A stretch of DNA of 64,000 nucleotides, from contig CM026429.1 of assembly GCA_014871385.1 (NCBI GenBank), forward strand, positions 14,681,979-14,745,978. Reading direction: 5' to 3'. The position numbers were made by a program, and so were the translations under genes. This DNA is from Ceratodon purpureus (lineage: Eukaryota > Streptophyta > Bryopsida > Pseudoditrichales > Ditrichaceae). Of the stretch, positions 795 to 35,609 are shown one piece after another (positions within the stretch are counted from its first letter, which is position 1; each line of letters begins with the position of its first letter). A model generated the notes under the pieces. That model ran no database searches, was not told the DNA's origin, and saw only the letters and a program-made list of their open reading frames with translations.

Positions 795-3700
795 CTAGAC
801 ATTGATAAGCGAAAGAAGGCCACTCTGAAAAATAGCCTTGACCTCGTTAAAGCTGAGGCTTGGAGCATGGATGTAGGAGTCCTGGTGAATATCAAGGTTG
901 CATATAGCATTGAAGATGTAATAGAGATGCTTGCAAGGCACCCAGGGAGGTCGTTTTCCCAGCGACTTGATGGACATTTCCTTGAAGTTGGGGCAGGTGC
1001 AGGCGGGCTCCGGGCCAATTGTTATTTTGTAGACGTTGGACTCCGATACGGTCTCAGAGACAACGCTGATGATGCACCCGAAACCTGGGTTAGGTATGAG
1101 TGTGACTGATTGGATTCGAATGGTGAGTAGAGTAGATGAGGCCCAGTTGTTCTCGTGCTCTGTTCGTGGCACCCGGTTACAACGCCGAATCTTGAATCCT
1201 CCTCGCACCGTGGGATATATTCCTGGAGCAGGGGGTACACTCCACTGCGATAGGTCAAACCGTGGCCGCTGTGGGAGAGATGCACCATCGTGAAAAACTT
1301 GGTGAGCGGGTAATTCTTGGCGTTGAGGGAGTCTGAAACCGGCTGCCTCGAGGTCAAGTATCTCCCTCTTTGAAAGGCGAGAGCCACGCTTGACAGGCCA
1401 GATAAGCGGGGGAGGGGGCATGCTGGAGACCCAGTTCCGCTTAGTACCCATGACGCATCTCTGGATGTCGTTGTTACAGAAGCAGAACTGCATCCATTTT
1501 TGCTGATCCTTCCTGACGTCGGTGAAGATGCCCCAGTAGCATGGCACAATTGTAGCCTTCTTTCCCCGTATGAGCCTCGCCGTGCACTTCTTATTCGTCC
1601 TCGCCTGTTGAGCAAAACACGCCTTCGCCGATCCCTTTGGAAGCCTGACAAGGTGCCACATACTCTCGTCCACATCCGTCTCCTCCACAGCGGTTACGTG
1701 ATGACGACTCCTGTTCTCGTCCGGGCTTGAGACTGGCGATGGGGGTGCCGCTTGGACCGTTTGTGGAGGTGAATCCTCTCGTTCAGCATCAGGCTCCTTG
1801 CGTGCTCGCGTATTCCTAGTGCTCAGACGAGGTTGAGAAAAATTTACCTTGTCCGGCCAGTGGGAGTCATATTCGGATCCGATCGGTTGATTCAGCTTCC
1901 GTTTCGTGGACCCAAAGAGCTCCTCGCCTTCGCGATGTGGCTCACGGGAGAGCAACTGTGGAGCGTCATGGAAGTGTTCAGTGGCATCGGCAAGGCGCTT
2001 GGGAATCCCTGATTTCTGAGCTCGCCGTAAACGGAGTTCGGCTTTGCAAGGTCCCTTACCCGGGGTCTCACCTCGCAGGTAGGCGCTATAGTTAGTGCAT
2101 TGCATGAAGCCCCTGACATAATCGTCCACCGTGGCAAAGTAGATGTTGTCGCCACGATTGCCCGACATCTGAAGCCATATATTGTGCACAGTCTCCGAGA
2201 GGTTGCAAGAGGGCATCTCGTCCTTCTCGGCGTCAGTAAGGTCCTGCAATCAAAGAAATTGCTGATTCAATCAATTCTACGTCAAATAAGTGTATTAAGT
2301 GACTGGATAAAAAAAGAGATGTTGTACTCACCAATTGCATGAATCCTCCCCACTGCCGATATCTAAAGTGCCAAAATACGAGCCAGAGTTCGAGGTCACG
2401 AAGACCGGAGGCAGTAGTAGCGCCTGAGGAGGTCCACCATGCTCGGATCGCGTGGAAACGAATGTCGGCTTCTTCCATGTTCTTTGCATCACGATACTGC
2501 TTGCAAAGCACGTAATGCTGCCTCTGCAAATCTGATCCGATGATGTGAGCCTCAGTGTGCTTCCTAAGTGAGGTTGCCCAATGAAACTGGCACGTACGCT
2601 CACGGTCTGGCATTGGAACCGTCGCGTCGCCACTTCCATAGATCTTCCGCACACAGTTCCAGTTGGCCTGGGCGCTGTCCGCCATGAAGCCCTTGAAGTT
2701 GACTTTGTCATAGCCATATTTTGCCATTATTCCGTTCAGGAATTGCCACATCACGGTCTGGGCCCTCACGTCTTCTGACTGCATATCACAAATGGCGATA
2801 GTCATGACCCGGCAATACTGAGAGTCATAGACATGACATGCCATGGTTGTCCAACCCTTTGTGCGCTTGACGTGATCAAACATAATCCAGGAATCTTGGA
2901 GATCCCCGCCAGGTTGCATTCGCTTTACAAGGTCCACTCCCGACCCGGGACCTTTCTCGGACATCTTAAAGATAAAAACCTTATCCCCTTCAGAACCCTG
3001 CCCGGGAAATTTATTGTCATGAATAAACTCCCACTTGCTGCAGCCCCGCAAGGCAGCGATGCCGTCGATAATGCCCAGGTTACCGATCCCCCTGAAGGTC
3101 GTCACGGCGTTCTTAAGCCCGGGCTTGCTGAGTGTATAATACTTCTTGAACACCTCATCCAACTCTTCGTCCGAAAGAATGGTCCGCTTCTCCCCCGGTG
3201 CAGTTAGGAGGTACTCACTCAGAAAATCCTTACTCGCCTCTAGAGCTAGGGCCGATGTCTTGGCGTACGGAGTGTTCTGCATATGCAACTCGAGTAGGTC
3301 GAGAACCTTCTGCTTGGTCTCCCTGCACTCAACGTATCCAACAGGGTGGTTATGTGTACCGATATGGATACACGCACGTGACATCGCAGGATTCCCGAGC
3401 ACGTAGTACATCCTTGCAGGGCACGTGGCGATGCATTCCGGGGGATATCTGCAGATTTTGCATACAAGTGTGGACTTCGGAGGAGGATCACAACCAACGA
3501 CAAACGGGGTAAGCGTGACACCGTCCCACTCAGACTCGTTCACCTCCATCTTGCGTTTGTCTCCTCGAAGCAAGAAGTCGCACTTCTCGTTCTGGCATTT
3601 CAGATGACCTGCACATACAGAATATCTGAAAGTCAGTCCTTGGTCGTTTGTGATGTTGGTCGTCATGGTCTTGCACCATGGATGTGCGTCGTACTTCTTA

Positions 3701-4356
3701 TCCATCCCTGCCATCGACTTTGCGCTCGCTGCAGTGCCGCGATCAGGGATTGGTGGAAGCTCGAAGAGCACGTCCCCGTTAAACTCGGTCGGTAGAAATG
3801 GCACGCGATCCCTCTGAAGTGCTCTAAAGTCCAACCTCGACAATGCATTCCTCGCTCCGGGTTTGGAAAAAAGACGCATAAGGCCGGGGATGACACTGAA
3901 GCTACCCGATACTGGTTTCTGCGAAGAACTTGGCTGAGCTTGGGACGGCGTAACGAAATCATCCTTATCTGACTCACTTAGGACATGAATGCGTTGAGCT
4001 ACGGGTTGTTTCACAGGAAGATTGGGCTCGGTTCCAACATCGACAGTCGATGTCATGGATCGGCCCGGTGTTAATATCTCAGTGGATGCAGCCCAACGAT
4101 CCGCAGTGAGTCCCCTCACGACATATCTTCTAGCCTCAAGAAGCCACTCCCTACCATCCTTAGCTCTAATCGGCATCTGATATACAGTTTGAATCAGTTC
4201 GCCGTCGTCGTTGACAATTTCTTCCTCAAGATGGACGGACTCAAGAACAAGGTTGTATCTCACGCTCAACAAGATAGCGGTAATCGACCCTACACCCTCC
4301 GAATTACATGGGATACAGAATGGAACATCGTGACCTTCAGCACGTATACGAGCCAT
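795..4356 (-). CDS. Mutator-like (MULE) transposase with WRKY-GCM1 finger and SWIM finger, copy A1
   Basis: Two exons, 4356-2332 and 2243-795, joined across an 88-nt GT-AG intron (2244-2331), give 1157 aa. The ATG at 4356 is the first in frame and matches the start of the B homologue. Residues about 245-345 hold a Cys/His cluster (CAGHLKC, LVCKICRYPPEC, ACIHIGTHNHP) of the WRKY-GCM1 type used by MULE transposases to bind DNA. The DDE core shows D494 in MFDHVKR, D560 in FMADSAQANW and H592 in CQFHW; the third acidic residue was not placed. A SWIM finger (CTCP...CKH) lies near residues 1090-1120. Expected role: nuclear cut-and-paste transposase acting on element ends. Divergent from the ParB-methyltransferase gene across 442 bp. 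The frame is intact; copy A2 differs by only a few residues. Confidence 0.88.
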
Positions 4357-4798
4357 CTCTACGGGTAAGATGTGCACAGAGTGGAAGAGCCGAAGTGAAG
4401 CAGGAAGGCTGTTGCATTGGGTGGTTTAAGAGTTTTGTAACCAAGTACGTGATAGTTCACCATTGCAGCGTGGTTCAAGACCAGTATCATGTCCCAGAAT
4501 ATAGTTGAACAGCTTTTATTTTGGGCACACAATCAGCATTAATGACTGACAGATTCAAAAATAAATCGTCTATGAGAAGAAACCGTCATGGCAAAGCCTA
4601 TGACGCCCTATGGAACCTCAATTAATAGGCGAACTTAGAGCTCGGTGGGGGACATTTAGCCTAAGTGCATCACACATTGGCCTTAGTCATTTTCAACATA
4701 GCACGGTTGAGGTTCATTTCTCTCTCAATGCATCAAGGATCTGATAAGAGTATGAGCCGGTTTTGTCTTCGAAGTAAGTTTTACGTTCACCGTCACAG
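4357..4798. promoter_or_regulatory. Divergent promoter between transposase and ParB-MTase gene (A1)
   Basis: 442-bp spacer between the two ATGs, so both genes must be driven from it. I see no clear TATA box on either strand. The decamer GCCGAAGTGA at 4389-4398 is the empty-site version of the target where element B sits in copy A2. Confidence 0.6.
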
Positions 4799-7700
4799 AT
4801 GCCCAAGTCACATCGGAGTGGGGGGTTAGGCTCCCCCAGTGAAGAAACCCAGGAGAGATCAGGGAAGAAGCGCAGAAAGAGTAAGACGGGGTTGCGCTTG
4901 ACGGACAGGAAGTATCAGAGTCAGAGCAAGAGTCAAAGCAAGGTTGTTCGTTCAGTAAGCTCGATTCTCAGGGACTCGAGATCCAAGATTGAAGGGTGTC
5001 CGAGCGTCAACACTGGAGGATCGGCCACGAAAGTTAGCAGCAATCACTTCGTCGACGGGCAAATGACGGTGGCCGTCTCAAGGAGGGTGTTCAGCGATCT
5101 ACACGCCAGTTCCATTCTTCAGCCGCGACATTCTGATGTAAGCTTGTCAGCACGATGTCTTGGTACGTTCTAGACGCAGCTGTAGCATCATGATTGATCA
5201 GCGAGATTTTCGCTAGCCAGTGCCAGGTCGGGATCAAGTACTCGTAGGACTGGTTTGCGGCATCAGAATAGTGAGTGGTGTGATCGTCATGATAAGTGTT
5301 TTATGGTTTAATAGTTTGCCGTCGCAATTTTCATGGTACGCTGGGCGTAGAGGAGGGAGTGGTTGTTGTCATCATCCAACCGGGTTGAAGCCGGCCGCGG
5401 TGTGTACTAATGGCTTATGAGGGTTTTAAAAGTTTGTAGGTTCTTGGCATGCATCACAGTCATTGTCATACTTAACTTTGAGTAGGAAGTTGGTGCGGTC
5501 ATCATTGTAGTTAGCTGTAGGAATTGATGGTTGTCGCGTTTAGGGTAGAGTGGGGGCCGCCGCGAGCAGGAAGTGTGGCTTAGAAGCTAATCGTGGAAAG
5601 GGTGTGAGCAAGAAGTGTGACTTAGAAGCCTGTCGAGGCAAGGGAGTAAGCACGCATAAATTGACAGACGGGAACCCTTGCTCTTCAGTTTTCTGAGGGT
5701 TGCGGTGTTGGAGGTCGGAGATGCAAGGAGGGGGTTTGGAGTGAGGTTCTTTGGTAGGTTAAGGGTATGCTGAAATGGTGTAAGTATAGGTTTTGAGAGG
5801 GTCTGAGAGGGGCGGCTTCAGAGCACATCTCCATTTGGTTTGCCGTTGCAAGGTTTAGGTGGATAGTGCGAGGTCTGAATTATTGTGGCCGAGAAGGGCT
5901 TGTGGGTGTCAAGAGCGGCGTTTTTTCAAGGCTTTAATCATTGGGAGTGCAGAACAACTAGTGACGGATTGCCGTATAATACGCATTACATCTGTAAGTG
6001 TTGCTTAGGGTTTTTGTGACTTCTTAGGGTTTATGATGTTATGCTTCGCATTTGGGTGTATTTGTTGTGCTCTGAAATGCGGCCTTCTATTGACTTGCAT
6101 GTAACGTGCCTCTACCTTGCAGGGCGCGATGAGCACTTCCCACGATATGGTAGACGCGGCCACAGAGGCAGTGAAGAGCGTGATAGACGATATTCCGAGA
6201 GGTTCCTTCATGGACGAGGATATGGGTAGTTTGCAACCTCCCATCCGTAATGGCAGGGCCCCACCAAAAGTAAACTTTATGGGCTCCTTGCTCGAAGGAG
6301 ATGATGAAGTGGGCAAGGCGGGCTTCTCGAGCGAGCAGCAGGAGGAGGGCTCGCGTGAGCAGCAGGAGGACGGCTCGCGTGAGCAGCAGGAGGATGGCTC
6401 GCGTGAGCAGCCGGAGGAGGACTGGTTTCAGCAAGAACCCAGCAAGGACAAGGACAGCAAGGAGGATGACGATCAGACCGAGGATCAGACCCAAGTTGGT
6501 GATGGCGAAGCCGGCGCTGATACTCTATTGAGCCTTGGTGGGCAGGTGGAAGAGATTGAACCTCCTCGAAAGCCTGTGAATGTTCGGCAAGCATTCCGTC
6601 AATTCAGGGAGGAGTTGAAGCCGGACCCATACGCTGCATTACTCAAAATGCGCCGCAGACCTCACCAATATTCAATGATCAAGATTCCCTTATGCCGGTT
6701 AATCCCATGTGATTTCGTGCGTCCAGCAATGCAGAGTGATGTACAGAAGTTGCAAGCTGAGTTCTTCAACGGCATAAGACCCGGGTCTGGGGCATTTTAT
6801 GTTGCAGATACATCGCACACGGGGGACGTCGCAAGTGTCACCGAGGAGATGAAGTCAGGATGGTGTAATGCTTGGAAGGTGTTGAACGCTGCGTTCGAGG
6901 ATGAGATCAGGCAGCACAGGGAGACAAAAGATCTTACAGGAAAGATGTTTTATGTCTTCGATGGTAACCACCGCACAAGGGCATGGCGGGAGTTCATCGA
7001 AGTGGAATACCCAGATGATCTTGAATGGGCTAAAGCAAACGGAAGGCCGGACTGTATTCTGCTCGATGTGAAGGGAAGCCGTGAAGCTCTAGTGACAGCA
7101 ATGCATGCCATCAACAAGTGAGTCCTAAACTGTGCAAGAGTATTGTGTTTTCTCCGGATGTTGATGTTGGATATAATAACATGGAAATTTAGAATCTTTG
7201 ATATTAAAGAAGTGTGTGTTGTATTCGACACAGGGCCAATGAGGATGCTTACGTCAAAGAAAGGCTGCCGCACACTCTACACAAGATACAGACGTACGGG
7301 CAAATGTCTGTGGAGGAGCTGGAAAGGAGTGGAATTCTAACGCCGGATCTTCTGGCGCGCACGAAGAGTTCAACTAAGAAGTCGTGGCACTCGATGCCTC
7401 AAGAAGTATTTGTGACGTTTTTACACAGCGTAAGTGTTATAAGAAATCAGTGCTGTCAATTCGTAATTGGATGATTCAAGTCCCGAGATGTTAATGGCAC
7501 GTGGACTGAAACAGGCAACATTGGCCCAAGTCGCAGAGGAGGCTTCTCAAATTTGGATCAACGAGCACCCTGGTGATGATTCAGGGCACGAGATGAGGGC
7601 AGCTGTGGACAAGGCCGTGAAGGAAGCCAAGGATAGGCTGCAAACAAAGTTCAACAGAGAGCAAGCCGTTGCAAATCCAGTCCATGGCAAGGGATTTCAA

Positions 7701-10700
7701 AACGAGGTAAATACTTTGGAGTTGATCAATTGGGTTATTCTTTGAATATAGGACGTTAAAATTTGTGGTGATAAGTGGAAATTGATCTCAAAAATGGTCT
7801 GTCGGATTGTTCTCTAAATCTTTGGACGTTCGGATTCCGAGGGGATGTGCCCATTTAGTTCGTAGAAATGATCTGTCGGATTCTTATGAGAAATTTAGGA
7901 TGTATAATTTCCAAGGGGATGTGCCCATTGAGCTCCTTTAAAATGATCTGTCGGATTTTTATGAGAAATTTCGGACGTTCATATTCCGAGGGGATGTGTC
8001 CATTAAGTTCGTAGAAATGATCTGTCGGATTCTTATGAGAAATTTAGGATGTATAATTTCCAAGGGGATGTGCCCATCAAGCTCCTTTAAAATGATCTGT
8101 CGGATTCTTGGAAGAAATTTCGGACGTTCATATTCCGAGGGGATGTGCCCATTAAGTTCGTAGAAATGATCTGTCGGATTCTTATGAGAAATTTAGGATG
8201 TATAATTTCCAAGGGGATGTGCCCATCGAGCTCATTTAAAATGATCTGTCGGATTCTTGGAAGAAATTTCGGACGTTCATATTCCGAGGGGATGTGCCCA
8301 TTAAGTTCGTAGAAATGATCTGTCGGATTCTTATGAGAAATTTAGGATGTATAATTTCCAAGGGGATGTGCCCATCGAGCTCATTTAAAATGATCTGTCG
8401 GATTCTTGGAAGAAATTTCGGACGTTCATATTCCGAGGGGATGTGCCCATTAAGTTCGTAGAAATGATCTGTCGGATTCTTATGAGAAATTTAGGATGTA
8501 TAATTTCCAAGGGGATGTGCCCATCGAGCTCATTTAAAATGATCTGTCGGATTCTTGGAAGAAATTTCGGACGTTCAATTTCCGAGGGGATGTGCCCATT
8601 AAGTTCGTAGAAATGATCTGTCGGATTCTTATGAGAAATTTTTGATGTTCAATTTCCAAGGGGATGTGCCCATTGAGCTCCTTTAAAATGATCTGTCGGA
8701 TTCTTGGAAGAAATTTCGGACGTTCAATTTCCGAGGGGATGTGCCCATTAAGTTCGTAGAAATGATCTGTCGGATTCTTATGAGAAATTTTGGATGTTCA
8801 ATTTCCAAGGGGATGTGCCCATTGAGCTCCTTTAAAATGATCTGTCGGATTCTTGGAAGAAATTTCGGACGTTCAATTTCCGAGGGGATGTGCCCATTAA
8901 GTTCGTAGAAATGATCTGTCGGATTCTTATGAGAAATTTTGGATGTTCAATTTCCGAGGGGATGTGCCCATAAAGTTTGTAGAAATGATCTGTCGGATTT
9001 TTATGAGAAATCTTGGATGTTCAATTTCCGAGGGGATGTGCCCATTGAGCTCCTTTAAAATGATCTGTCGGATTCTTGGAAGAAATTTCGGACGTTCAAT
9101 TTCCGAGGGGATGTGCCCATTAATTTCGTAGAAATGATCTGTCGGATTCTTATGAGAAATTTCGGACGTTCAAATTCCGAGGGGATGTGCCCAATGAGCT
9201 CGCGGAAATTTTCTAAAAAATCCGACAGATTGATTTATAACACTCATGGTAGCAAGGTACCACAGAGATTTTACATACGTTTAGATGATTTGGATCAATT
9301 ATTTGCACTAAGATGTGTTTTTTTAGTAATTTTAAGGAAAATGTGCCTCAAAATGCGAAAAATACCGAAGTACCCTGGAATGTTTGAGTCGAGAAATCAT
9401 CTTTAGAATCCGACAGATGGTTTTTCTGTGTACATTTACCTAGGTACTCTGGGAAACTAGTCGCAAGAAATTATCTCTAGAATCCGACAGATGGTTTTCG
9501 AGTGTCAATCATCTCAAGGTACCTTGTCAAGTTGGTGATAGCAAACAAGTTTAGAAATCCGACAGATGATTCTATTGTTTCCATTTACCTGGGTACTCTG
9601 GAATGTTTGTCCGAAGAAGTAATCTCTAAAATGTGTCAGATGATTTTAATGTGTCGATTACCGCAGGGTACTCTGTCAAGTTGGAGAATTTAGATTAGCT
9701 CTGAAATCCGACATATGGTTTTGATTGTGTCAAATTACCTTGGTACTGTGGGAAGTAAGACAGTAGAAATAATCTCTGAAATTAGACTGTTGAATTCAAT
9801 GTGGCCAATTCCTCAAGGTACGTCAGGAAACTAGATATCGTAAACAATCTAAAACCTATGACAGATGGTTTATTTGTGTCAATCTACCTAGATACCTTGG
9901 AAACTTGGAGACATGAAATAATCTCAAAAATCCGACAGACGACATTGATGTGTCGACTTCCGCAAGGTACCTTGTCAAGTTGGCGATCAAAAATCATCTC
10001 TGAAATCCGACAGAGAATTATTTTGTGTTCACCTAGCTAGGTATTGTGGACTATATGACTGAAGAAATATTCTCTGAAATCCATTACATGATTTTTATGT
10101 TTCGAATACCCCAAGGTACCTCGGAAACTTAGCATTGATAAATCATCTGTCTTATCCGATAGATGAAATCTATATCGTATTCTTTACATGGTACTGTGTT
10201 GCATTCGTATGACAGATCAGCTGTTGGACCCTTTAGCGGTGATCTAACACACTTTCTATGACAGAAAATGATGATTTTACATAGATAGTTAATGCTCGGT
10301 TATGAGGAAATTTGGTATTCGATGCAATGATGTCTCTCAGATTCTAATCTTCACTAGTCTGATTACTTGGGATGCTGTTGATTTTCAGATCAAAAGACAT
10401 TATGATCGGCACCAAACAAAGGTTGAGATGACCATCGACAAGCTCCAAGCAATTGCAACATCTGAGGTGTCGGCCAAAACAAAAGCGAAATGGCTGAGAT
10501 GGTGGAATGGGTCGGCGAGTTCAAGGAAAACATTGAAGTTTCCACCATCACCTTGCTCAATTGAAGTGCTTAACCCCTGGATTACAAAAGCTGCATTTTG
10601 GGCAAACGTAAGTTTATTTCATTATTTCTAGAACTCTGGGTTGTTACACGGATTCGAGGTTATAGCCGATGGCGTCCTCTTTAGTTATTTGTGTCTCACT

Positions 10701-12886
10701 CTTAAGTTGATGGTTTTGTATCAGTTGGAAGACGAAGTCGAGAAAGAGTGCCTCAACTGGTTGGCAACCAGTTCCGATTCAGAGGAAGACGTCAACTCGA
10801 AGCGCACTCCTATGGCCGAGTACATCGAGAAGTGGCGTGTGCTCCTATGGGAGAAGGCATACTTGTCGTTCTTCACGGGAGCTAATGTGTATTCGAAGTC
10901 GCAACCATTCAATTCCCAACCAGGGACTGACATGGCTTGGAAGCGATGTCTGTATCGGTACTTTAAGCGGGAGCTCATCCCAGATGGTGTGGTAAAGAGT
11001 ATACCACCTCCGTGGTTCAGCTGGACGGAGACATCGAATTCCGAGTTCATCTTCACAACCAACCAGCGGAAGATGTTCAATTTGAACCATCTGATTGAGT
11101 GCTGCTGGTATATCGAGTGCCCAAAGTCATTTGTAACTGCTGAGGAGAAGGCTGTAAGGGAGATGTTTACCAAGAGGAAAGATGGGGATGACGACACCCA
11201 TGATATTTCAGATGAAGCACTTCCTGCTCAGGATGCAGAGCCAGAACAGGATACACAAGTCGTTTCGACATCCACTGGTGCGGGGGATGCGAACACAAAG
11301 AAACGGAAGAGGGGAGCGAAGTCGGCATCGAAGGAGTCCCACCAGGAACCAGTGAAGAAGAGGAGCAGGGGGAAGAAGTCGGACCCAGCGACTGTTGAGC
11401 CGAATGGTGCGGAGAATGGGACATTCTCTCCAAGGATTGGACATGCTGAGATGCCAGACGTCAGCGCACCTCAAGCAAGATGCCCTGTTCATGAGTTGAT
11501 TCTGAATGAATCAATAACTGAGTGGCAGAAGGCAAATCCTAGAATGAGGTTGAAAAGCATGCCAAAGGCTTTCAACGATATGGTCCAGTGGATTCGGAGC
11601 GTCACCCCGCAACGGGTCCGGATGAAGGACGGGAAGAGTGTTCGGGGGGGTGGATTGGCAGATCTCATTATCATTGATATTCCGGAGGGTCTACCGGTCC
11701 CTGGTATATCCGATGAGGACGAGATTCCAGATTGGAACAGCAGAGGCGACAATTACCTTGCAGCCGTCTTTGGCTTTGTTAAGCTCGTTCTCCAAGACCA
11801 GGGGTGTGTGATCATTATCCATCCGGATGACAATGGCGAAATTGAGGACGAGATTCGTGATTTTCATCAAGTGGTTGAATTGAAGTCTGAGAGGTCGTGG
11901 ACAGGCATCAATAGATTGCTTCTTCGCTCCGCGAAAATAAGCGGCATGACAACATGCTTCTTTAAGGTGCAACTTCTTACATTATCCTCGAATAACAGCT
12001 TTGACTTCAGACCGACACCCGAGGATTACAAGAAAAAGAGCATCGACATCGTTGACCGTGATGTCATCCTAAATTGGGTTACGCTGGAGCAACAGACGAT
12101 GCGCAAGGAGGTGCCATGGCGAGGAGCGAGGGAGAAAGACGTGCTGTTCATCGAGAGCTTAATCAGAGCCACCACCGACCCTGGTGACGTCGTCGTCGAT
12201 ATCGGCGCCGGAACGGGTAAGTCTCGTCGTTTTTGCACATGCGAGGTAACTATGAACAAGGCCTTTTTTTTGGAATTCGAAACTACTAAAATCTAACAAA
12301 GAGGCACTCAATTGTATCAGGTGCATCAATCAAAGCATGCCGGCAGTCAGGACGGAACATAGTCGCGCTTGAGGATGATCAGGAGCTGTATACAGAAGTC
12401 CTTAAGAAGTTGGCCCTGCCGCCACTGCCTCTACCAAAGGCGGATGCATCTCATGTACCGATGAAGCCAATGATCGAAAAAGACGTGGTGGCCACTCCTA
12501 AGCCGGTGAATAAATTCATCGCCATGATGACCGAGGAAAGCGACGACGAGTAAGTGAGTATTCCAATGAACATTTTCTAAATGAGACATTTTGAATTGAC
12601 ATGGATTTTTGTACAATATGAATCTGTTTTTTGATACGGTTGTTGTCGCAGACCGCTAAGTCCGCGTTCCGGGGGGATAATTAACGAGTGCATCAAGAAG
12701 ATTGCACTATCACCTGATCTGCTGCGGCTTCCAGAGTATGCCGAGCTAGGGGCTCAATTTCAAGCTAATGTGGAGTCTCCCAGAATGAAAAAAGTTACGC
12801 GTAGAAAATACGATGGTCGAGTCCTAAACTTTGTGGACATTGAAGCCGAAGTTGTTACTCATAGCATTCTTGTTGATCCTGAGTGA
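4799..12886 (+). CDS. ParB-like / beta-class DNA methyltransferase-like fusion protein, copy A1
   Basis: Eight exons: 4799-5137, 6123-7117, 7234-7429, 7488-7706, 10389-10607, 10725-12216, 12321-12549 and 12652-12886. They total 3924 nt with no internal stop, giving 1307 aa. The exon 4 acceptor (GAG at 7485-7487) is the weakest choice. Order: Lys/Arg/Ser-rich N-terminus (likely nuclear), acidic Gln/Glu repeats, ParB/sulfiredoxin-like domain about residues 290-450 with DGNHRTRAW near 392, a helical middle, then a methyltransferase region. Near 1147, PGDVVVDIGAGTG then GRNIVALEDD match the SAM-binding motif I and following strand of bacterial N4/N6 enzymes (family pattern DPFxGSGTT, then GRxFIGIE). 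The motif IV position (about 974) reads DIPEG rather than DPPY, so catalysis is doubtful. ParB-MTase fusions are familiar in bacteria and phages; as a MULE partner I know of none. Confidence 0.8.
6005..6032 (+). promoter_or_regulatory. Two telo-box-like TTAGGGTTT motifs in intron 1 (A1)
   Basis: TTAGGGTTT occurs at 6005-6013 and 6024-6032, just upstream of exon 2. The motif is the reverse complement of the plant telo-box core AAACCCTA. Family B has the same motif at 30411-30419 and 30792-30800, around its own first intron. Confidence 0.4.
7790..9215. repeat. Satellite array in intron 4 of the A1 ParB-MTase gene (74-bp monomers)
   Basis: About 19 monomers of about 74 bp, alternating between two subtypes (roughly 148-bp dimers). 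One subtype has CTTATGAGAAATTT, the other CTTGGAAGAAATTTCGGACG. Every monomer starts with ATGATCTGTCGGATT and includes GGGGATGTGCCCAT. The array lies wholly in the 2682-nt intron (7707-10388). The A2 copy of the intron is 298 bp shorter, equal to four monomers. Confidence 0.93.
9216..10250. repeat. Degenerate inverted-motif array in the same intron
   Basis: Diverged units of roughly 80-110 bp follow the satellite. They carry AATCCGACAGAT, the reverse complement of the satellite core ATCTGTCGGATT, alternating with GGTACC-centred motifs. Two are perfect palindromes CAAGGTACCTTG (9515-9526 and 9963-9974). Short open frames here are by-products of the repeats. Confidence 0.75.
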
Positions 12887-20963: not shown

Positions 20964-23900
20964 CTAGACATTGATAAGCGAAAGAAGGCCACTCTGAAAA
21001 ATAGCCTTGACCTCGTTAAAGCTGAGGCTTGGAGCATGGATGTAGGAGTCCTGGTGAATATCAAGGTTGCATATAGCATTGAAGATGTAATAGAGATGCT
21101 TGCAAGGCACCCAGGGAGGTCGTTTTCCCAGCGACTTGATGGACATTTCCTTGAAGTTGGGGCAGGTGCAGGCGGGCTCCGGGCCAATTGTTATTTTGTA
21201 GACGTTGGACTCCGATACGGTCTCAGAGACAACGCTGATGATGCACCCGAAACCTGGGTTAGGTATGAGTGTGACTGATTGGATTCGAATGGTGAGTAGA
21301 GTAGATGAGGCCCAGTTGTTCTCGTGCTCTGTTCGTGGCACCCGGTTACAACGCCGAATCTTGAATCCTCCTCGCACCGTGGGATATATTCCTGGAGCAG
21401 GGGGTACACTCCACTGCGATAGGTCAAACCGTGGCCGCTGTGGGAGAGATGCACCATCGTGAAAAACTTGGTGAGCGGGTAATTCTTGGCGTTGAGGGAG
21501 TCTGAAACCGGCTGCCTCGAGGTCAAGTATCTCCCTCTTTGAAAGGCGAGAGCCACGCTTGACAGGCCAGATAAGCGGGGGAGGGGGCATGCTGGAGACC
21601 CAGTTCCGCTTAGTACCCATGACGCATCTCTGGATGTCGTCGTTACAGAAGCAGAACTGCATCCATTTTTGCTGATCCTTCCTGACGTCGGTGAAGATGC
21701 CCCAGTAGCATGGGACAATTGTAGCCTTCTTTCCCCGTATGAGCCTCGCCGTGCACTTCTTATTCGTCCTCGCCTGTTGAGCAAAACACGCCTTCGCCGA
21801 TCCCTTTGGAAGCCTGACAAGGTGCCACATACTCTCGTCCACATCCGTCTCCTCCACAGCGTTTACGTGATGACGACTCCTGTTCTCGTCCGGGCTTGAG
21901 ACTGGCGATGGGGGTGCCGCTTGGACCGTTTGTGGAGGTGAATCCTCTCGTTCAACATCAGGCTCCTTGCGTGCTCGCGTATTCCTAGTGCTCAGACGAG
22001 GTTGAGAAAAATTTACCTTGTCCGGCCAGTGGGAGTCATATTCGGATCCGATCGGTTGATTCAGCTTCCGTTTCGTGGACCCAAAGAGCTCCTCGCCTTC
22101 GCGATGTGGCTCACGGGAGAGCAGCTGTGGAGCGTCATGGAAGTGTTCAGTGGCATCGGCAAGGCGCTTGGGAATCCCTGATTTTTGAGCTCGCCGTAAA
22201 CGGAGTTCGGCTTTGCAAGGTCCCTTACCCGGGGTCTCACCTCGCAGGTAGGCGCTATAGTTAGTGCATTGCATGAAGCCCCTGACATAATCGTCCACCG
22301 TGGCAAAGTAGATGTTGTCGCCACGATTGCCCGACATCTGAAGCCATATATTGTGCACAGTCTCCGAGAGGTTGCAAGAGGGCATCTCGTCCTTCTCGGC
22401 GTCCGTAAGGTCCTGCAATCAAAGAAATTGCTGATTCAATCAATTCTACGTAAAATAAGTGTATTAAGTGACTGGATAAAAAAAGAGATGTTGTACTCAC
22501 CAATTGCATGAAGCCTCCCCACTGCCGATATCTAAAGTGCCAAAATACGAGCCAGAGTTCGAGGTCACGAAGACCGGAGGCAGTAGTAGCGCCTGAGGAG
22601 GTCCACCATGCTCGGATCGCGTGGAAACGAATGTCGGCTTCTTCCATGTTCTTTGCATCACGATACTGCTTGCAAAGCACGTAATGCTGCCTCTGCAAAT
22701 CTGATCCGATGATGTGAGCCTCAGTGTGCTTCCTAAGTGAGGTTGCCCAATGAAACTGGCACGTACGCTCACGGTCTGGCATTGGAACCGTCGCGTCGCC
22801 ACTTCCATAGATCTTCCGCACACAGTTCCAGTTGGCCTGGGCGCTGTCCGCCATGAAGCCCTTGAAGTTGACTTTGTCATAGCCATATTTTGCCATTATT
22901 CCGTTCAGGAATTGCCACATCACGGTCTGGGCCCTCACGTCTTCTGACTGCATATCACAAATGGCGATAGTCATGACCCGGCAATACTGAGAGTCATAGA
23001 CATGACATGCCATGGTTGTCCAACCCTTTGTGCGCTTGACGTGATCAAACATAATCCAGGAATCTTGGAGATCCCCGCCAGGTTGCATTCGCTTTACAAG
23101 GTCCACTCCCGACCCGGGACCTTTCTCGGACATCTTAAAGATAAAAACCTTGTCCCCTTCAGAACCCTGCCCGGGAAATTTATTGTCATGAATAAACTCC
23201 CACTTGCTGCAGCCCCGCAAGGCAGCGATGCCGTCGATAATGCCCAGGTTACCGATCCCCCTGAAGGTCGTCACGGCGTTCTTAAGCCCGGGCTTGCTGA
23301 GTGTATAATACTTCTTGAACACCTCATCCAACTCTTCGTCCGAAAGAATGGTCCGCTTCTCCCCCGGTGCAGTTAGGAGGTACTCACTCAGAAAATCCTT
23401 ACTCGCCTCTAGAGCTAGGGCCGATGTCTTGGCGTACGGAGTGTTCTGCATATGCAACTCGAGTAGGTCGAGAACCTTCTGCTTGGTCTCCCTGCACTCA
23501 ACGTATCCAACAGGGTGGTTATGTGTACCGATATGGATACACGCACGTGACATCGCAGGATTCCCGAGCACGTAGTACATCCTTGCAGGGCACGTGGCGA
23601 TGCATTCCGGGGGATATCTGCAGATTTTGCATACAAGTGTGGACTTCGGAGGAGGATCACAACCAACGACAAACGGGGTAAGCGTGACACCGTCCCACTC
23701 AGACTCGTTCACCTCCATCTTGCGTTTGTCTCCTCGAAGCAAGAAGTCGCATTTCTCGTTCTGGCATTTCAGATGACCTGCACATACAGAATATCTGAAA
23801 GTCAGTCCTTGGTCGTTTGTGATGTTGGTCGTCATGGTCTTGCACCATGGATGTGCGTCGTACTTCTTATCCATCCCTGCCATCGACTTTGCGCTCGCTG

Positions 23901-24525
23901 CAGTGCCGCGATCAGGGATTGGTGGAAGCTCGAAGAGCACGTCCCCGTTAAACTCGGTCGGTAGAAATGGCACGCGATCCCTCTGAAGTGCTCTAAAGTC
24001 CAACCTCGACAATGCATTCCTCGCTCCGGGTTTGGAAAAAAGACGCATAAGGCCGGGGATGACACTGAAGCTACCCGATACTGGTTTCTGCGAAGAACTT
24101 GGCTGAGCTTGGGACGGCGTAACGAAATCATCCTTATCTGACTCACTTAGGACATGAATGCGTTGAGCTACGGGTTGTTTCACAGGAAGATTGGGCTCGG
24201 TTCCAACATCGACAGTCGATGTCATGGATCGGCCCGGTGTTAATATCTCAGTGGATGCAGCCCAACGATCCGCAGTGAGTCCCCTCACGACATATCTTCT
24301 AGCCTCAAGAAGCCACTCCCTACCATCCTTAGCTCTAATCGGCATCTGATATACAGTTTGAATCAGTTCGCCGTCGTCGTTGACAATTTCTTCCTCAAGA
24401 TGGACGGACTCAAGAACAAGGTTGTATCTCACGCTCAACAAGATAGCGGTAATCGACCCTACACCCTCCGAATTACATGGGATACAGAATGGAACATCGT
24501 GACCTTCAGCACGTATACGAGCCAT
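20964..24525 (-). CDS. MULE transposase, copy A2 (intact frame, promoter displaced)
   Basis: Exact structural copy of the A1 transposase: exons 24525-22501 and 22412-20964, 1157 aa, with the same zinc finger, DDE and SWIM motifs. I count three amino-acid differences from A1, all in exon 2 (Asn/Asp in FCN-DIQ, Thr/Asn in HHV-AVEE, Ala/Val in PD-ERED). Insertion of element B 33 bp upstream of the ATG has replaced the native promoter. The open frame now runs upstream without ATG into the B terminal repeat. The protein is probably functional if transcribed, but expression is doubtful. Confidence 0.87.
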
Positions 24526-24567: not shown

Positions 24568-24619
24568 GAGGGAAGCTTGTATGTGAGCGGTGAGCGGAGA
24601 GCGGAGAGCGGAGAGCAGA
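24568..24619 (+). repeat. Left terminal inverted repeat of element B
   Basis: Begins GAGGGAAGCTTGTATGTGAG and continues with four GAGCGG(A/T) heptamers ending in AGCAGA. It matches the reverse complement of 57451-57502 at 47 of 52 positions. A further AGAGCAGA repeats about 30 bp inward. Confidence 0.9.
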
Positions 24620-24718
24620 GATTTTCTGCTCTTAGAGCGCAAAATGGAGAGCAGATTCTAAAAATGGAAATTTTTTTACTAAAAATAGAATAAAAGATGA
24701 TGAAAAGAGAATCTTTTC

Positions 24719-24744
24719 GAATATTCCAAGGAATATTCCTTGAA
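24719..24744. promoter_or_regulatory. GAA/TTC modules resembling a heat-shock element
   Basis: GAATATTC at 24719-24726 and 24731-24738, then GAA at 24742. Each GAATATTC has the spacing of a two-module HSE core; spacing between the two pairs is not canonical. It lies about 120 bp upstream of the left-arm gene. Confidence 0.25.
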
Positions 24745-24866
24745 TGTGGGATACTTTCCGGGTTCTGTTAAAGGGTTTTTTGGGTCTGCCCACCAAGTAC
24801 TGGTCTCGAAATTGTGCGGCAAGGCGTGAATGACGGGGTCTTTTGTGATTTCACTGGAATAAATGG

Positions 24867-25391
24867 ATGACTCTGGAGCCTTTGCTCTCTCACTCTCGTT
24901 TGTTAGCTGGTGGAATGTTCAGGGTTTGGGGTGGGGTGCATACCGTTTTCGCCATGGAGGAAGTCGGTTTTGGGGTTGTATCCCTAGGTGATGAGGGTGG
25001 GCCATTTGAACCTTTTCTTGAAGATGAGGGTGACGAGTTGTTGCTGAAGCCACGACCATCGCCTCCTAAACCGGTAGAAGGTGGACATAGCGGTGGGCTT
25101 GATGTGGTGCCATGCACTGTTACGGGGGCGCTCGACAAATCGCCCACTAAGGAGGTTGAGTCCAAGTCCCTTCCAAGCCATGCTTATTCCAGGGTTGGCA
25201 GAATTCCTCCGGGGACTTATTCGAGATCCGCAATCTGTGGACGTGTGGGGTCCAGTCCAGTCATTAAAATTCCTCGGCCTGGTTCTTCGTCAGGTCCACG
25301 TCTGGATGAATGCGTCGTCCGTCCGATGGAAACTAAAGGTAGCTATGTAGAAATATCAAAAGGACGGCCAAGCCGCATCCGATTCATGTGA
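24867..25391 (+). CDS. Hypothetical left-arm protein of element B, 174 aa
   Basis: Not recognised. ATG at 24867; a later start at the internal MEEVGFG is possible and better framed. It contains a short acidic stretch, then Pro- and Lys-rich sequence (KPRPSPPKP), probably disordered. It ends 221 bp before the convergent transposase. Its place and size match the A2 gene at 17950-18450. Confidence 0.42.
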   Translation: MTLEPLLSHSRLLAGGMFRVWGGVHTVFAMEEVGFGVVSLGDEGGPFEPFLEDEGDELLLKPRPSPPKPVEGGHSGGLDVVPCTVTGALDKSPTKEVESKSLPSHAYSRVGRIPPGTYSRSAICGRVGSSPVIKIPRPGSSSGPRLDECVVRPMETKGSYVEISKGRPSRIRFM

Positions 25392-25612
25392 TGTAATATT
25401 CTTTCAGAAAGTGCATGGTAATAAAGTAATTATTTGTGGAATAAGAATGGTGGACAAGATGTGCGACGACAATTACTCGGCCAGGTGTCACTTTTTTTTT
25501 ACATTAATGGCAAATCAAATCATGTATTACTGAGTCATAGTCAGACTCGATTAAAAACAAAAGCAGTGTACCACTGCGACGTCGTGATGGTCTTAATTAG
25601 AAAGGGCAAATT

Positions 25613-28600
25613 CTAGACTGTCTCGTCGGGCTCTGCCAAGGGGTGTGTCAAGATTCCACTCTCGAGGAGTAACTTCACTTCGTTGAAGCTAAAGGTCGGT
25701 GCATGGATGAAAAGTTCCACATCCGGGTCACGCAGGCATACCTTTAAGAGGACGTAATACATATGCTTGCAGTATGTAAATTGAACCCTCCCACGGAACT
25801 TCGTCATTGTTTTCTTGAATGCTGGGCATGTGCAGCCGGGGAGGGAGCTGATGGTGATCTGGTATTTCGTCACATTGGGAGGAGCACCGGAGTCTAGCGC
25901 GATGATGCAGCCGTGGCCGGGATGAGGAATCATGGTGATAGACCGTAGTCGTGCTTTGAGGGAGTCGGAGGAGGCCATGGACAGCCTCTGCTGCGGATTA
26001 GGACGAGTCGCAGTCCGCTTGACAATCTTCCCGTCTCTCTTTCCAGGGTACCGGTCAGCCTCTGCCGGCACCGGAACCGAGTCTAGGTTTCGCGGAGGGG
26101 GGTCGGAGGTGAAGAGCCTCCTAGGCGAGACTGGTTTCTTCTGTGGGAGCTGAAACCCTGCCTCCTCCAAGGCAAGAATCTCACAGTCTTTCAGGTTCGT
26201 CCCAAGTTTCACAGGCCATACTGTTGGGATGGGTGGAAATCCTTCCTTTCTCGATAAATCGTACCAGTTCACCCATTTGCGCCTTGTCCCCTTCACGCAC
26301 CTCTCAATGTCGTCGGGGCAGAAAAAGAAGTCCTCGGTTATGTCGAGGTTCCTCCTTCTGCTGTGCCATACACCGCTATAGGTCGGGGCAGGGGTGGGCT
26401 TAGCACCCCTGACAATCCTCTCTGTGCATTTCTTATTGGTGACGGCCCTCTGCGCCCAACAGCACTTTGCGGAAGTCTTTGGCAGTCGAGCAATGTGCCA
26501 CTGCTTCACGTTCACTCTGGTCTCCTCCACAGCCGAGACGTGACGCACGCCTCCTTCGCTGAAGGGTGAAGCGATGACGGAATCCATCTGTGGCGATGGA
26601 TGATGAGCAGCTTCAACCTCGCGGTCGCCTTCCTCGACGATGACCGGCATGGGAGCTACGCAAGCTCTGACAGGTCTGGTACTGACTTGAGGATGCGAGA
26701 AGTTTACCTTATCTGGCCTATGCGACTCTTCCTCAGCGCCAAGAGGCAAGTCGGGCTTGCGTTTCCGCGAACCAAACACCTCCTCCCCTGGCAGATGTGG
26801 GACACGCGTACAAAACTCATCGGCGCCAGGCATGTCCAGCATGGGGTCCTCCAAAACCTTTGGATCGCCCGTTTTCTTCGCCCTACGTTCTGCGGATCGT
26901 AGCCTCAGCTCCTTCTTGCTCGGGCCAGTACCCCCCACGTCGCCCTTTAGGTACTGGTAGTAATTCACAACCTGTAGAAAAGCACGGATAAAGTCGTCGA
27001 CGGTGGCGACGTACAGATCACTGCCATTATTCCCGGATGCTTGAAGCCACTTGTTGTGAACCGTCTCCGCGAGGTTGCAGGACGGCATCTCCGCGAGTTC
27101 CGCCTCCGAGAATTTCTGAGATCCAACAACGGATGAACGATTAATGAGTCACTACGATGAGCATGTACGGGGAAAGAGAAAACAACAGTGGGTGGCGTGG
27201 TTACCTCGGTCATGAACCCACCCCATTGGCGATATCGATAATGCCAGAATGAGAGCCATAAGTCAAGTTTCGATAAGGCAGATTCGGACACTGCACCCGC
27301 AGATGCCCACCAAGCCCTTATCCCGTGATAAAGAGCATCGGCCTCCGCCATTGATCTTGCCTTCCTGTATTGCTGACACATCTTTTTGTGTTGATCCCAC
27401 AACTCTTCGGCGACGTATTTCTCGGTATGATTCACCATCGACTGGGTCCAATGAAATTGACAGGTCCTCTCCCGGTCCTCCATCTGATCTTCCTTGTTGC
27501 CATTGCCGTATACCACCCGGACCGCATTCCAATTAGCCTGGGCGCTGTCCGCCATGAATCCCTTGAAGTTCGGCTTCTCCACGCCGTGTCTCTTCATGAC
27601 TGCGTTGAGGTTCTTCCAGAACACCATCTGGGCTTCGGCGTCTTCAGATTGCATGTCGCAGCAGGCGATCGTCATGACCCGGCAGTACGTGGAGTCATAC
27701 ACGTGGCATGCCATGGTTGTCCAATTTCGCACGCGCTTGACGTGGTCAAACATCATCCACGAAAGCTCCAGATCCCCCGTCGGCTGCATTCTCTTCACAA
27801 GATCGACACCACTCGCGGGCCCAATCTCGGACATTTTGAACACGTAGACCTTGTCAAATTCTGACCCTTGGCCAGGGAACATGTTGTTCTGTACGAAATC
27901 CCATGTGCTGAGTCCCCGCAGCTTCGTTATGCTGTCCATCACCCCGAAACGTCTGAGGTACCTAAAAGTAACGACCTTGTTCCGAATGTTAGGCGACGCC
28001 ATATCCTTGCACCTATCGAGCACCGGGTAAAGCTCTTGAACGGTGAGCGTCTTCGGTGGATCATCCTCCGATCGTAATAAAAAACTACCAATCAGGTCCT
28101 TGCTGGCCTCTAGTACAACGGCGCTCTTCGTAGCCTTGGGCGCGTTCTCGATCTGATTTTCTATCAAACTACTTATCTCGACCTTAATGTCACGGTAGTC
28201 TCCCACCTTGACAGGGTGGGTGTGGGATCCTACGTGGATGCACGCCCGTGTCCTATTGCCCTTGCCCGAAACATAAAATATCCTTGCTCTACAAGTGGCA
28301 ACGCAAACGGGAGGTTCCTTACATACCTTGCAGACCAAAGTGGATTCCTTCGGAGCCTCTTCACCCACAACAAACGCCTGCAACGTGCATCCGTCGAATT
28401 CGGTCTCATTCACGTCGAAGATGCGATGGTCGCGCTCAAGGTACCCGCAGTCCTTGTTCTCGCACCGCAAATGGCCCGCACATGAAGACGACCGGAAAGA
28501 GAGGCCCATATTGTTGGAGATGTTGGTGGTGATCGTCTTCGTCCACACGTGCCCATCGTACCTCTTATCCATGCCCTGCATGGACTTGGCGGCTGATCGT

Positions 28601-29370
28601 GAGGCAGAGGATCCCACAGGTGGCAGTTCAAAGATGACGTCGCCGTTGAACTCCGCCGGCAGATACTCCACTCTCTCATGTCGGATGGAGTCGTAGTCTA
28701 ACTTCTTCAGGAGGTTCTTCTTACCCGGCCGCGCAGTAAGCTTCTTCAACAGCGATACAATACTGACGGACTCGTCCAAAGAAGGGGGCATTGCCATGAG
28801 ATCCGAAGCGCGAGTGTCCACAGCCGCCTCGGGACGGACAGGTTCTCTGGCGGGTAAATCTCCGGCTGACTTTCGAGTCCGCGGGCTCCCGTCATCGTCA
28901 GAGGAGAGATTGATAACCGGGGTATCTAATCCCGGCTCAACTTTTACTTTGGCAAGGAGAGGCGTCGTTGAGCCAGAGTCGGTCTTCAACTTCACGTCCA
29001 CCGCTCCTGGTGTCTGGATGGTGCAAGTAGAGGACCGTCTGGGGGTCAGGATCTCGGTGGACGCAGCCATCTGGGAATCCGTGAGACCGTAGACTCTAAA
29101 CCTACCAGGCGTGAGCCTCCACATCTTACAATCCCTCTCGTCCACAAATGAGACCTGGCCTAGTGTATGTGTGATCTCTCCAGTGAGCTCATCACAGATC
29201 TCCTCCTCAACGCTAATGGAGTCCTCTTGATACTGGAACCTAAGACTAAGACGCTGACATGACACAAGAGCGTACCCATCATCATCTACGCGAAACGTAA
29301 GCGGAATTCCAACGCCATGTGCGTAAAGAAAAACGGAACCTTGGAACTGAGCCGGGACAGGTAGCGCCAT
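25613..29370 (-). CDS. MULE transposase with WRKY-GCM1 and SWIM fingers, family B
   Basis: Exons 29370-27205 and 27115-25613, joined over an 89-nt GT-AG intron at the same place as in family A, give 1222 aa. Same order as A: N-terminal domain, ASTEILTP motif before a linker, GCM-type Cys/His cluster (CAGHLRC, LVCKVC, ACIHVGSHTHP), DDE core (MMFDHVKR, FMADSAQANW, CQFHW) and SWIM finger (CTCP...CKH). Many substitutions separate it from A, so the families are old relatives. The ATG at 29370 (MALPVPAQ) aligns with the A start. A TATA box lies 78 bp upstream. The frame is intact, so B may be autonomous for transposition. Confidence 0.88.
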
Positions 29371-29447
29371 GGCGTAGGCAGATCGGAAAGAGCGACACAA
29401 TCGACGAAGCGCAGAATTGAGAGGATTGTTGCAGCATTTTCCACTGC

Positions 29448-29454
29448 ATTTATA
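29448..29454 (-). promoter_or_regulatory. TATA box of the B transposase
   Basis: TATAAAT on the minus strand in the context CGTATAAATGC, 78 bp upstream of the transposase ATG. Confidence 0.5.
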
Positions 29455-29614
29455 CGTTTGTATTTGCTAATCTCAACTTGTCATAACAGAGACGAATGTT
29501 GAAGAGAGGATGAACACCTGACGGACTAAAAGGGGATGATGACTGGGTTTAGGGGCCCCCTATGTTTACTTGAAAGGACGATCATGCGACAAATCACCAG
29601 CCACTAGAAGGCTC

Positions 29615-29622
29615 TATAATAA
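29615..29622 (+). promoter_or_regulatory. TATA-like box, plus strand, in the B divergent spacer
   Basis: TATAATAA within CTCTATAATAAGGACC. It faces the ParB-methyltransferase side and could start a transcript covering the basic open frame at 29888. Confidence 0.3.
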
Positions 29623-29887
29623 GGACCAGCCGTCTCTTGATTGCCACTGAATATAATTAGGGCTGGTACACCGTGTCAGAGTAAATTCCCTGACATGGGA
29701 AAAAGGGGAGGGATCTGAGCCGCCAATTCTAGGAATTTTGAGTTAAGGAAATCTTTATATGGAAGGGCGCCAAAACAGTTAGCAGCGTCAAAAATAACAG
29801 TACTCATCCTGACGAGAGATATATTAAAGCAATGAGTGGCATTCTCCGGGATGTTTAGTGTGGCGAGAGAGCAGGATAGTGTCACAG

Positions 29888-30319
29888 ATGCATGTCGATG
29901 ATTCAACTGAAGTGGTCGCCACTCCTGTGAGAGAGAGAAAGAGAAAGAGGAAGGGGAGAGACAAGCTGTTTTCAAACTCGAGGCAGCTGACAGCTTCGAG
30001 GATGAGACAGGCTGAGGAACGGAGGCGACGTGTTGAGGGGTTTGGCGGGACCGTGAAGGCATTGAGTAAGGACTTCGCAAAACTTCCAGTCATAGCAGTA
30101 CCTCGAGTAGCAAAGGGGGGCGGGTTGTGTGAGACATCGCCATCGCAGTGTGTGACGCCGCTCCAGCAATCAATTCCCCTCACCATACCTGAGTGCTTAG
30201 AGGTACGTGTGTTAATTGTAGACATCATTAGTTTGTGCGCCCTTGCTCTTGAGGCCAGGTATAAGAAGGGGGAGAAGCTCCATGCTCAGTCTCTCTGTGC
30301 CCCCTCGTGGTGTTCTTAG
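29888..30319 (+). CDS. Possible upstream exon or small basic protein
   Basis: ATG at 29888 opens a frame with a strong basic stretch (RERKRKRKGR), then an Arg-rich helix (RMRQAEERRRRVEG). After 105 codons there is a GT donor in phase 0 (GAG/GTACGTG, exon end 30202); if unspliced the frame closes at 30319. It resembles in character, not sequence, the basic first exon of the family A partner gene. It may be an alternative first exon of the B ParB-methyltransferase gene, or a separate gene. Confidence 0.3.
   Translation: MHVDDSTEVVATPVRERKRKRKGRDKLFSNSRQLTASRMRQAEERRRRVEGFGGTVKALSKDFAKLPVIAVPRVAKGGGLCETSPSQCVTPLQQSIPLTIPECLEVRVLIVDIISLCALALEARYKKGEKLHAQSLCAPSWCS
30260..30265 (+). promoter_or_regulatory. 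TATA-like box of the B ParB-MTase gene
   Basis: TATAAG in AGGTATAAGAAGG, about 190 bp upstream of the ATG at 30454, with pyrimidine-rich sequence beginning about 30 bp downstream. Confidence 0.35.
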
Positions 30320-34110: not shown

Positions 34111-35016
34111 CTTAGTCAATTTTGGGGATTATATTACTTCTTGATTGTTGCTTTACGAATTAGAAGTTTAGGTATGATGTGTTTAAATTTCAGATGATGA
34201 CCAGTAGAACGTTACTGTCCAAGTTATTTTGACCCTCTAGGGGAGCTGCAAAGTCACGTGGCTCGTCATGTTCGGCATTGATAAGCCATTTGAATTTGCA
34301 GATTTCCTGGAAGGATCGATTGTTTTGGTCAATGACGTTATTTAACGCCTCCAGGATGTGGTGTAGCTGCAATGGTGGAATGGCCTGATGAGCGTTTGTT
34401 ATGGCATGACTTTGTTTCTTACGTTGTTTGGGTTTACGTCCTTTCAGATTCGGAACCATTACAACCATCGCCCTAATCAGAAGTGCGAGATGGGGCTAGA
34501 CAAACTGCAGCTGATTGCGACCACCAACGTCAAGGGGATGTATAAAGTGCGTTGGCTGAAGATGTGGAACGGCTCTGATAATACCAGGGCTGCAAACAGT
34601 TTTCCGAGGACTTCGTGCAGTGAGTCTCAACTTCATGCTTGGCTGCACAAAGCATGCTTCTATGCGCTGCTGGAGGACGAGATCACGGAGAAGATTGAGC
34701 CTATCCTGCTTGAATATCCGCTTCCAGACTGGACTAAGGAAGTCAAGTCCTGGCAAGTGTACCTGAACTACTGGAAGAAGAAGGTGTGGCAAAAAGCTTT
34801 TCCAACTGTCTTTGCCGGGAAACATGCATTCCAGCGGAACGACACTTGGAACCAGGTGCCTAAGGGCAATCTCATCGTCAGCCGGTTTATTTATAGGTGA
34901 GTATCAAAACCTTGGTATGCTCTTGTTTAGTTTTGTCTTTGCGCAGATGAAGAAATCTGACCCAATTCCCTCTGTTTTATAGGTACTACAGGAGGGAGTT
35001 GATGCCAAAGAAGGCG

Positions 35017-35024
35017 ATCACGGA
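35017..35024. repeat. Target-site duplication of the hAT element, left copy
   Basis: ATCACGGA, identical to 50624-50631; 8 bp is diagnostic of hAT insertion. Confidence 0.93.
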
Positions 35025-35159
35025 CATGGTTGTCATAATGGACGGACGGGCCAAAAAATTGTCGTGTAGTCACGTGACGAACGTGACGGACGGTTATCGG
35101 ACGGACGCTTATCGGACGGGCTCCCGACCGCGAGCAAAATTACTGTCCTCACAGTTTAC

Positions 35160-35487: not shown

Positions 35488-35609
35488 TTGCCACCCTCCT
35501 CCACTGATTTCGCACCCCCCCACTTTGTGCATTTTGCCTTCAACAGCCCAAGGGTAGCTGATTGCTTAGTGCTACGGTGGGTTTCTCAACATTCGGTGTA
35601 CCGTCCAAC

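Follow-up and report, generated by a model that had tools for sequence, protein, structure and literature searches.

A giant, probably Mutator-like transposon lineage whose divergent accessory gene resembles ParB-methyltransferase fusions

Two divergent genes in a nest of transposons

The window analyzed here, a 64,000-nucleotide stretch of Ceratodon purpureus DNA (C9:14681979-14745978 of a 362-Mb, 151-contig genome), is a nest of transposons. Two related elements in it, A and B, each combine a predicted transposase gene with a divergently oriented partner gene, the product of which would join a likely ParB-like part to a part with homology to N6/N4-type DNA methyltransferases. Element A is present twice, as A1 and A2, and B is inserted in A2. 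The gene models for A1, A2 and B were predicted from open frames and splice signals, and the features on which our argument rests are as follows.

795..4356, minus strand: A1 transposase, exons 4356-2332 and 2243-795 with one 88-bp intron, 1157 amino acids
4799..12886, plus strand: A1 partner, eight exons (4799-5137, 6123-7117, 7234-7429, 7515-7706, 10389-10607, 10725-12216, 12321-12549 and 12652-12886) with GT-AG junctions, 1298 amino acids, no internal stop
6615..7115, plus strand: ParB-like part of the A1 partner, DGNHR at residue 393
10725..12549, plus strand: methyltransferase-like part of the A1 partner, placed by motifs and PF01555
7791..10163, no strand assigned: two tandem arrays in intron 4 of the A1 partner, ~149-bp period made of two half units of ~74.5 bp
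20964..24525, minus strand: A2 transposase, open, three amino-acid changes relative to A1
57913..64000, plus strand: A2 partner, running off the window end, stop at codon 231 (59592 region)
24568..57502, no strand assigned: element B, 32,935 bp, inserted in A2, with terminal inverted repeats and a target duplication
25613..29370, minus strand: B transposase, exons 29370-27205 and 27115-25613, 1222 amino acids
31317-31829, 31927-32415, 34430-34897, 50636-52066 and 52291-52455, plus strand: B partner pieces, found by tblastn
31317-31829, plus strand: ParB-like part of the B partner
50636-52066, plus strand: methyltransferase-like part of the B partner, QVPD at the motif IV position
32504..33771, no strand assigned: array in the homologous intron of the B partner, 151-bp units, self-match inverted

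The original prediction had placed a complete transposase/partner pair in A1, the same pair in diverged form in B, and the pair once more in A2. Both A1 frames could be reconstructed without an internal stop, although the partner, first put at 1307 codons, comes to 1298 amino acids under the eight-exon model. The diverged pair in B was also recovered. Its partner had been given as an uninterrupted 1265 codons with a hAT insertion left out; the pieces are present, but this copy is broken, since the hAT element sits in sequence that codes in A. A possible further exon of the B partner lies upstream, near 30560-30706. For A2 the transposase is indeed open, but its partner contains a stop and A2 turned out to be a tandem duplicate of A1.

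A and B are well diverged. Their transposases are 50% identical at the protein level in exon 1 and 47% in exon 2, and share a single intron at the same position. The partner proteins are 31-37% identical; when read by eye, four partner introns coincide in position between the two elements, the intron between A exons 5 and 6 has no counterpart in B, and B has one intron that A lacks.

Both genes moved together in element B

Element B ends in the inverted repeats GAGGGAAGCTTGTATGTGAGCGG and GGGGAAAGGTCGTATGTGAGCGG, identical at 19/23 positions, and is flanked by a 10-bp target duplication, GCCGAAGTGA, for which the uninterrupted site is present in A1 for comparison. The insertion splits A2 into two blocks, 20170-24567 (99.6% identical to A1) and 57503-64000 (about 98-99%), which overlap by ten bases of A1. 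Because the inverted ends and the 10-bp duplication enclose the pair in one insertion, transposase and partner moved as one unit in B. Without its hAT, B measures 17.3 kb, and its two genes are oriented as in A.

The situation in A is different in kind. Comparison with the flanking DNA showed A1 and A2 to be the two copies of a 20.17-kb direct tandem duplication, joined end to end at 17685-17689; they are therefore not two independent transpositions, and we dropped A2 as an independent third case. The two transposase genes differ by seven synonymous and three nonsynonymous changes, and 24 of 4097 noncoding columns differ. A target duplication was searched for at candidate ends of A and none was found, so that the ends of A are not fixed within the 20.17-kb unit. 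At 17689, the left end of the repeated A unit agrees with the left repeat of B in 15/23 positions, and a short inverted counterpart of it lies near 17259 (17/19). Inverted-repeat candidates at 17881 and 15283 were rejected, as 35 of 300 random pairs score equally high. We also observed that the A1-A2 junction abuts a left element end (17685-17689; L017, L018); a circular or dimer intermediate might account for this, as might a plain duplication.

The partner has methyltransferase homology with a substituted motif IV

At the level of sequence, the partner carries N6/N4-type methyltransferase homology, as had been proposed. The spliced A1 partner matches the N6_N4_Mtase profile PF01555 above its cut-off (E 8.2e-7, 29.6 bits, cut-off 26.7); single partner exons of A and B remain below it. 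Six of the 11 PDB matches listed are N6/N4-type DNA methyltransferases (DpnA, RsrI, CcrM, MboIIA; E 0.0014 to 0.15) and the other five are either unnamed methyltransferases or rRNA dimethyltransferases. Scored with a model built from three phage methyltransferases, A reached 32.0 bits and B 12.6 bits, values equaled in 0 of 3000 shuffles each, and the only match in PHROGs was a weak one of A to a DNA methyltransferase (E 0.006).

In the A1 partner, DIPE occupies the motif IV place at position 965, followed by PWRG at 1111, motif I (DIGAGTG) at 1139 and the acidic motif at 1160. This order, IV before I, is presumably that of the beta class, in which active N6/N4 DNA methyltransferases have [DNS]PP[YFW] as motif IV. 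We surveyed motif IV in ten further stretches, two of which (L073 and L074) gave no match. The A lineage reads DIPE in A and DVPE in L069, L070, L071, L072 and L075, and the B lineage reads QVPD throughout (B, L076, L077 and L078), so the usual motif (DPPY) is substituted in 10/10 sequences read, that is, in A, B and eight copies representing about four lineages. The five A-type copies are 43-50% identical to A in the methyltransferase part, L069, L070 and L071 being mutually close; stops occur in the stretch read of L070 and of L072. Diverged lineages have the substitution in common, so that it appears to have been retained and not to be a product of decay; the substitution argues against presuming ordinary methylation. 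An alternative motif IV (PPPW, A residue 741) was discarded, as it is not conserved in B.

Phage enzymes read DVPY or DPPY at the motif IV place. The methylase of Ruminococcus phage phiRM10 (L001 988-1797) is one that has DVPY, from which it follows that the first Pro of motif IV is not invariant in phage enzymes.

A likely ParB-like part and arrays in the partner intron

We consider it likely, from motifs and weak matches, that the upstream part of the partner is ParB-like. The residues IPLCRL...FYV-DGNHR--AW...DC--L---NK are ones that we take to fit the ParB/Srx pattern. The A part matches 11 phage records from seven phages, of which seven are annotated as ParB and four as methyltransferase, all at E 0.6-9. 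An hhalign comparison with phage proteins gave P 3.8e-4 (control P 0.05), a value that is partly circular because the phages had been chosen by A. Other searches with this part were negative: none of the eight phage records matched by B is annotated as ParB or methyltransferase, A has one plasmid match, to an unrelated gene, and the PDB offered no support. Pfam found no ParB domain in any of five phage proteins scanned, and the score of the B part alone is reached by 143 of 5000 shuffles.

The original prediction had stated that bacteria and phages encode fusions of the same two parts, and we found two such proteins, gp207 of Gordonia phage Stormageddon and a protein of Mycolicibacterium phage phi1_186018. 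Like the partner, both have an N-terminal part that can be aligned with ParB-annotated phage proteins and then PF01555 (the ParB call was made by alignment to depositor-annotated ParB-like proteins, the methyltransferase call by Pfam). Unlike the partner, they are 444 and 428 amino acids long, have a canonical TDPPYG and, in the stretches shown, have no adjacent transposase. Scans of viral contigs confirmed no relative in four of five cases and returned one contig in the fifth; Rfam gave no match.

One partner intron carries tandem arrays in both A and B. Half units of the first A1 array carry AATCCGACAGA; the second array runs in inverted orientation and has diverged further. The motif AATCCGACAGATG, which was picked after the arrays had been seen, occurs 57 times in the window when up to two mismatches are allowed, compared with 1.7 expected. 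The A and B arrays occupy the homologous intron and are unrelated in sequence. The window contains long arrays outside these introns too, such as one of 143-bp units in the hAT element, and we therefore regard the intron arrays as a lead and not a result.

The transposase is best filed as Mutator-like

Catalytic residues were assigned by eye, at motif level, as D494-D560-E692 in A1 and D542-D608-E739 in B. Both transposases have D-65-D-130/131-E spacing with C-x2-H after the second D (CQFH in both), an HxHP finger-like N-terminal part and a SWIM-like C-terminal C-x-C...C-x-H, a pattern that 29 and 21 of 2000 shuffles also produce. The SWIM profile itself falls below the Pfam cut-off (E 0.017 for B, 0.043 for A). 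The IS256 profile NF033543 gave a sub-threshold match to B (E 0.0025, 16.9 bits, cut-off 150) and no match to A, and the B transposase had no match among plasmids. Sola1 elements make a 4-bp target duplication, which the 10 bp of B do not fit. The B duplication does fall inside the range of 8-11 bp given for Mutator-like elements (MULEs) in PMC6446971. Together with the 10-bp duplication, these features make Mutator-like the best filing of the transposase, at motif level.

The pair recurs in a genome sample and the methyltransferase part is constrained

In a genome search with the ParB-like part, 150 of 1832 candidate places were scored. The best match (E 2e-114) is far above chance; 60 of the 150 cover almost the full length of the query with at least 95% identity, and 25 are B-like (38-39%). 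To sample neighbors we took every seventh row from 4 to 137 (n = 20) and read 1.7 kb around the place where a transposase would be expected. It was there in 15/20 copies, divergent in 15/15; the seven rows at the head of the sample and the two B-like rows are all among these. The original prediction had asked for a genome-wide survey of whether partner genes neighbor a transposase, and in this sample they are not mostly without one.

It had also held that the partner is kept under selection, and constraint on the methyltransferase part is supported by sequence comparison. The one unsaturated comparison, L069 with L071, gave a dN/dS of 0.27 (dS 0.20). A1 with L069 and L071 gave 0.14 and 0.17, and the transposases of A1 and L058 gave 0.05, all with dS near saturation; three of the seven comparisons made were saturated.

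Contig C6 (110.5 Mb) is nearly four times the size of the other large contigs seen (16-29 Mb) and, among the matches listed, accounts for the majority of the diverged partner copies and of the PF10551 MULE matches.

Relation to known systems

There is precedent for a ParB-methyltransferase gene on a transposon. According to PMC12477816, the Ectocarpus element Sola1-1_Ec32 carries such an accessory gene, and similar proteins on green and red algal transposons are cited there (including Petroll 2025). The partner resembles the Ectocarpus protein in its length of ~1100-1300 amino acids, its ParB-like and N4/N6 methyltransferase parts, its strand opposite the transposase and its residence on a giant DNA transposon. 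It differs in that the host here is Mutator-like with a 10-bp duplication, and perhaps also in motif IV, which is substituted in the partner. The green and red algal cases are known to us by citation alone, and one of them could already be a MULE.

A ParB-methyltransferase on a MULE did not turn up in the literature titles and abstracts listed, a search that mostly leaves subscription journals uncovered and so leaves absence unproven. VANC is an accessory gene of a MULE, and VANC, mudrB and Mutyl mutB are, unlike the partner, accessory proteins of other kinds. In PMC6446971, mudrB and Mutyl's antisense MutB lie beside the MULE transposase, and the words "methyl" and "ParB" are absent from the main text of that paper. 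The original suggestion of a new two-gene mobile system needs to be narrowed, since ParB-methyltransferase genes on transposons are already published; what stands is a two-gene mobile unit with a MULE-like host. As far as we have seen, the class of the partner is known, while the Mutator-like host and the shared change in the catalytic motif are undescribed.

A Mutator-like host, high copy number and constraint would point to recurrent recruitment of one bacterial module by unrelated transposons. The motif IV substitution makes the DNA methylation presumed for such proteins directly testable, and dozens of near-identical copies in one genome offer an experimentally tractable system.

Interpretation

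We favor, with somewhat better than even confidence, the explanation that this is a giant Mutator-like transposon with a DNA-binding, SAM (S-adenosylmethionine)-domain accessory protein derived from a ParB-methyltransferase fusion. The lineage would encode the two divergent genes and would have been active recently, as the many near-identical copies suggest. Its DDE transposase would cut and join the element ends, giving the 10-bp target duplication. The accessory protein would descend from a phage-type ParB-methyltransferase fusion that was probably acquired before the split of A and B and has been co-inherited since. Its ParB-like part may bind element DNA, possibly at iterated sites in the partner's own intron, and its C-terminal, methyltransferase-derived part may bind SAM and DNA; together they could protect copies from silencing or assist transposition, as helpers of the mudrB and VANC type do.

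Several results weigh against this explanation. PF10551, the MULE profile, matches neither full-length transposase, and it does match 93 other genomic places among 150 scored candidates. An hhalign comparison with four genomic MULEs aligned the second-D region with P 0.057 (equaled by 5 of 150 column shuffles). AlphaFold models of the transposase core and of the ParB-like part, with pLDDT (predicted local distance difference test) values of 47 and 40, are too poor for a fold search. No Pfam ParBc match was obtained in A or B, which leaves the original label of ParB with its motifs and sub-threshold phage matches; that of MULE likewise keeps its motifs and duplication and is without a PF10551 match, the other profiles being sub-threshold. 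In the neighbor sample, five of 20 copies (rows 53, 60, 81, 95 and 123) have no transposase in the stretch read, and several diverged partner copies carry stops, including in the ParB part. Over 800 shared codons the A1 and A2 partners show no synonymous and four nonsynonymous differences, one of them the stop. The unmatched PF10551 and a resemblance to resident genomic MULEs that is weak and not significant would suit a transposase from a different or new DDE superfamily, accompanied by a ParB-methyltransferase gene as in Sola1. We think this improbable in view of the duplication length, which lies within the MULE range given in PMC6446971, the catalytic spacing with C-x2-H and the C-terminal SWIM-like finger, and the sub-threshold IS256 match of B. 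The copies without a neighboring transposase, the stop in the A2 partner and the faster evolution of the partner relative to the transposase would be expected if the pairing were passive, with the partner hitchhiking and giving no help to transposition. Such hitchhiking seems very unlikely given that a frame of 1298 amino acids is open, that A and B have introns in common, that the methyltransferase part is constrained and that the partner has been retained across families with transposases that share only about 50% identity.

With regard to what the partner does, the original prediction suggested that it perhaps marks element DNA or counters silencing; methylation as the means of marking is now doubtful, motif IV being substituted in every sequence read. 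Several observations would nevertheless agree with an enzyme that is active as an N6-adenine or N4-cytosine methyltransferase and that marks element DNA under the guidance of the ParB-like part: (i) SAM motif I and the acidic motif are kept in A (DIGAGTG/ALEDD) and B (DLTAGTG/AIEED); (ii) the A lineage keeps the Asp and Pro of motif IV, as D[IV]PE; (iii) one phage enzyme has DVPY at this place; and (iv) the authors of PMC12477816 predict N4-methylcytosine or N6-methyladenine for the Ectocarpus protein. We nonetheless judge an active enzyme to be rather unlikely, as the aromatic residue of motif IV is replaced by Glu or Asp in all ten sequences, the catalytic Asp is Gln in B-type copies, and motif I is altered in L069, L070, L071, L075 and L076 (AATG, AATS or AETG), reading AATG or AATS in some A-type copies. 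It is also conceivable, although we give it little credence, that a methyltransferase with altered catalysis has been repurposed in the partner, giving a transposon-encoded, partition-like DNA-binding protein. This would coat the ~75-bp iterated sites, in arrays of 149-151 bp, that A and B both keep in the homologous partner intron, and so mark or cluster copies without methylation.

The hAT element within B

The insertion that breaks the B partner is itself a transposon.

35025..50623, no strand assigned: hAT element, 15,599 bp, in the B partner, with inverted ends CATGGTTGTCATAATGG and an 8-bp target duplication, ATCACGGA
44067-47060: hAT transposase open reading frame, DUF659 and hAT dimerisation domains

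The element also carries a RING-finger open reading frame (36703-39333) and one for part of a protein kinase (49241-49981), both below Pfam cut-offs, as well as a long-period tandem array at 41734-42735, making the hAT a giant element with cargo itself.

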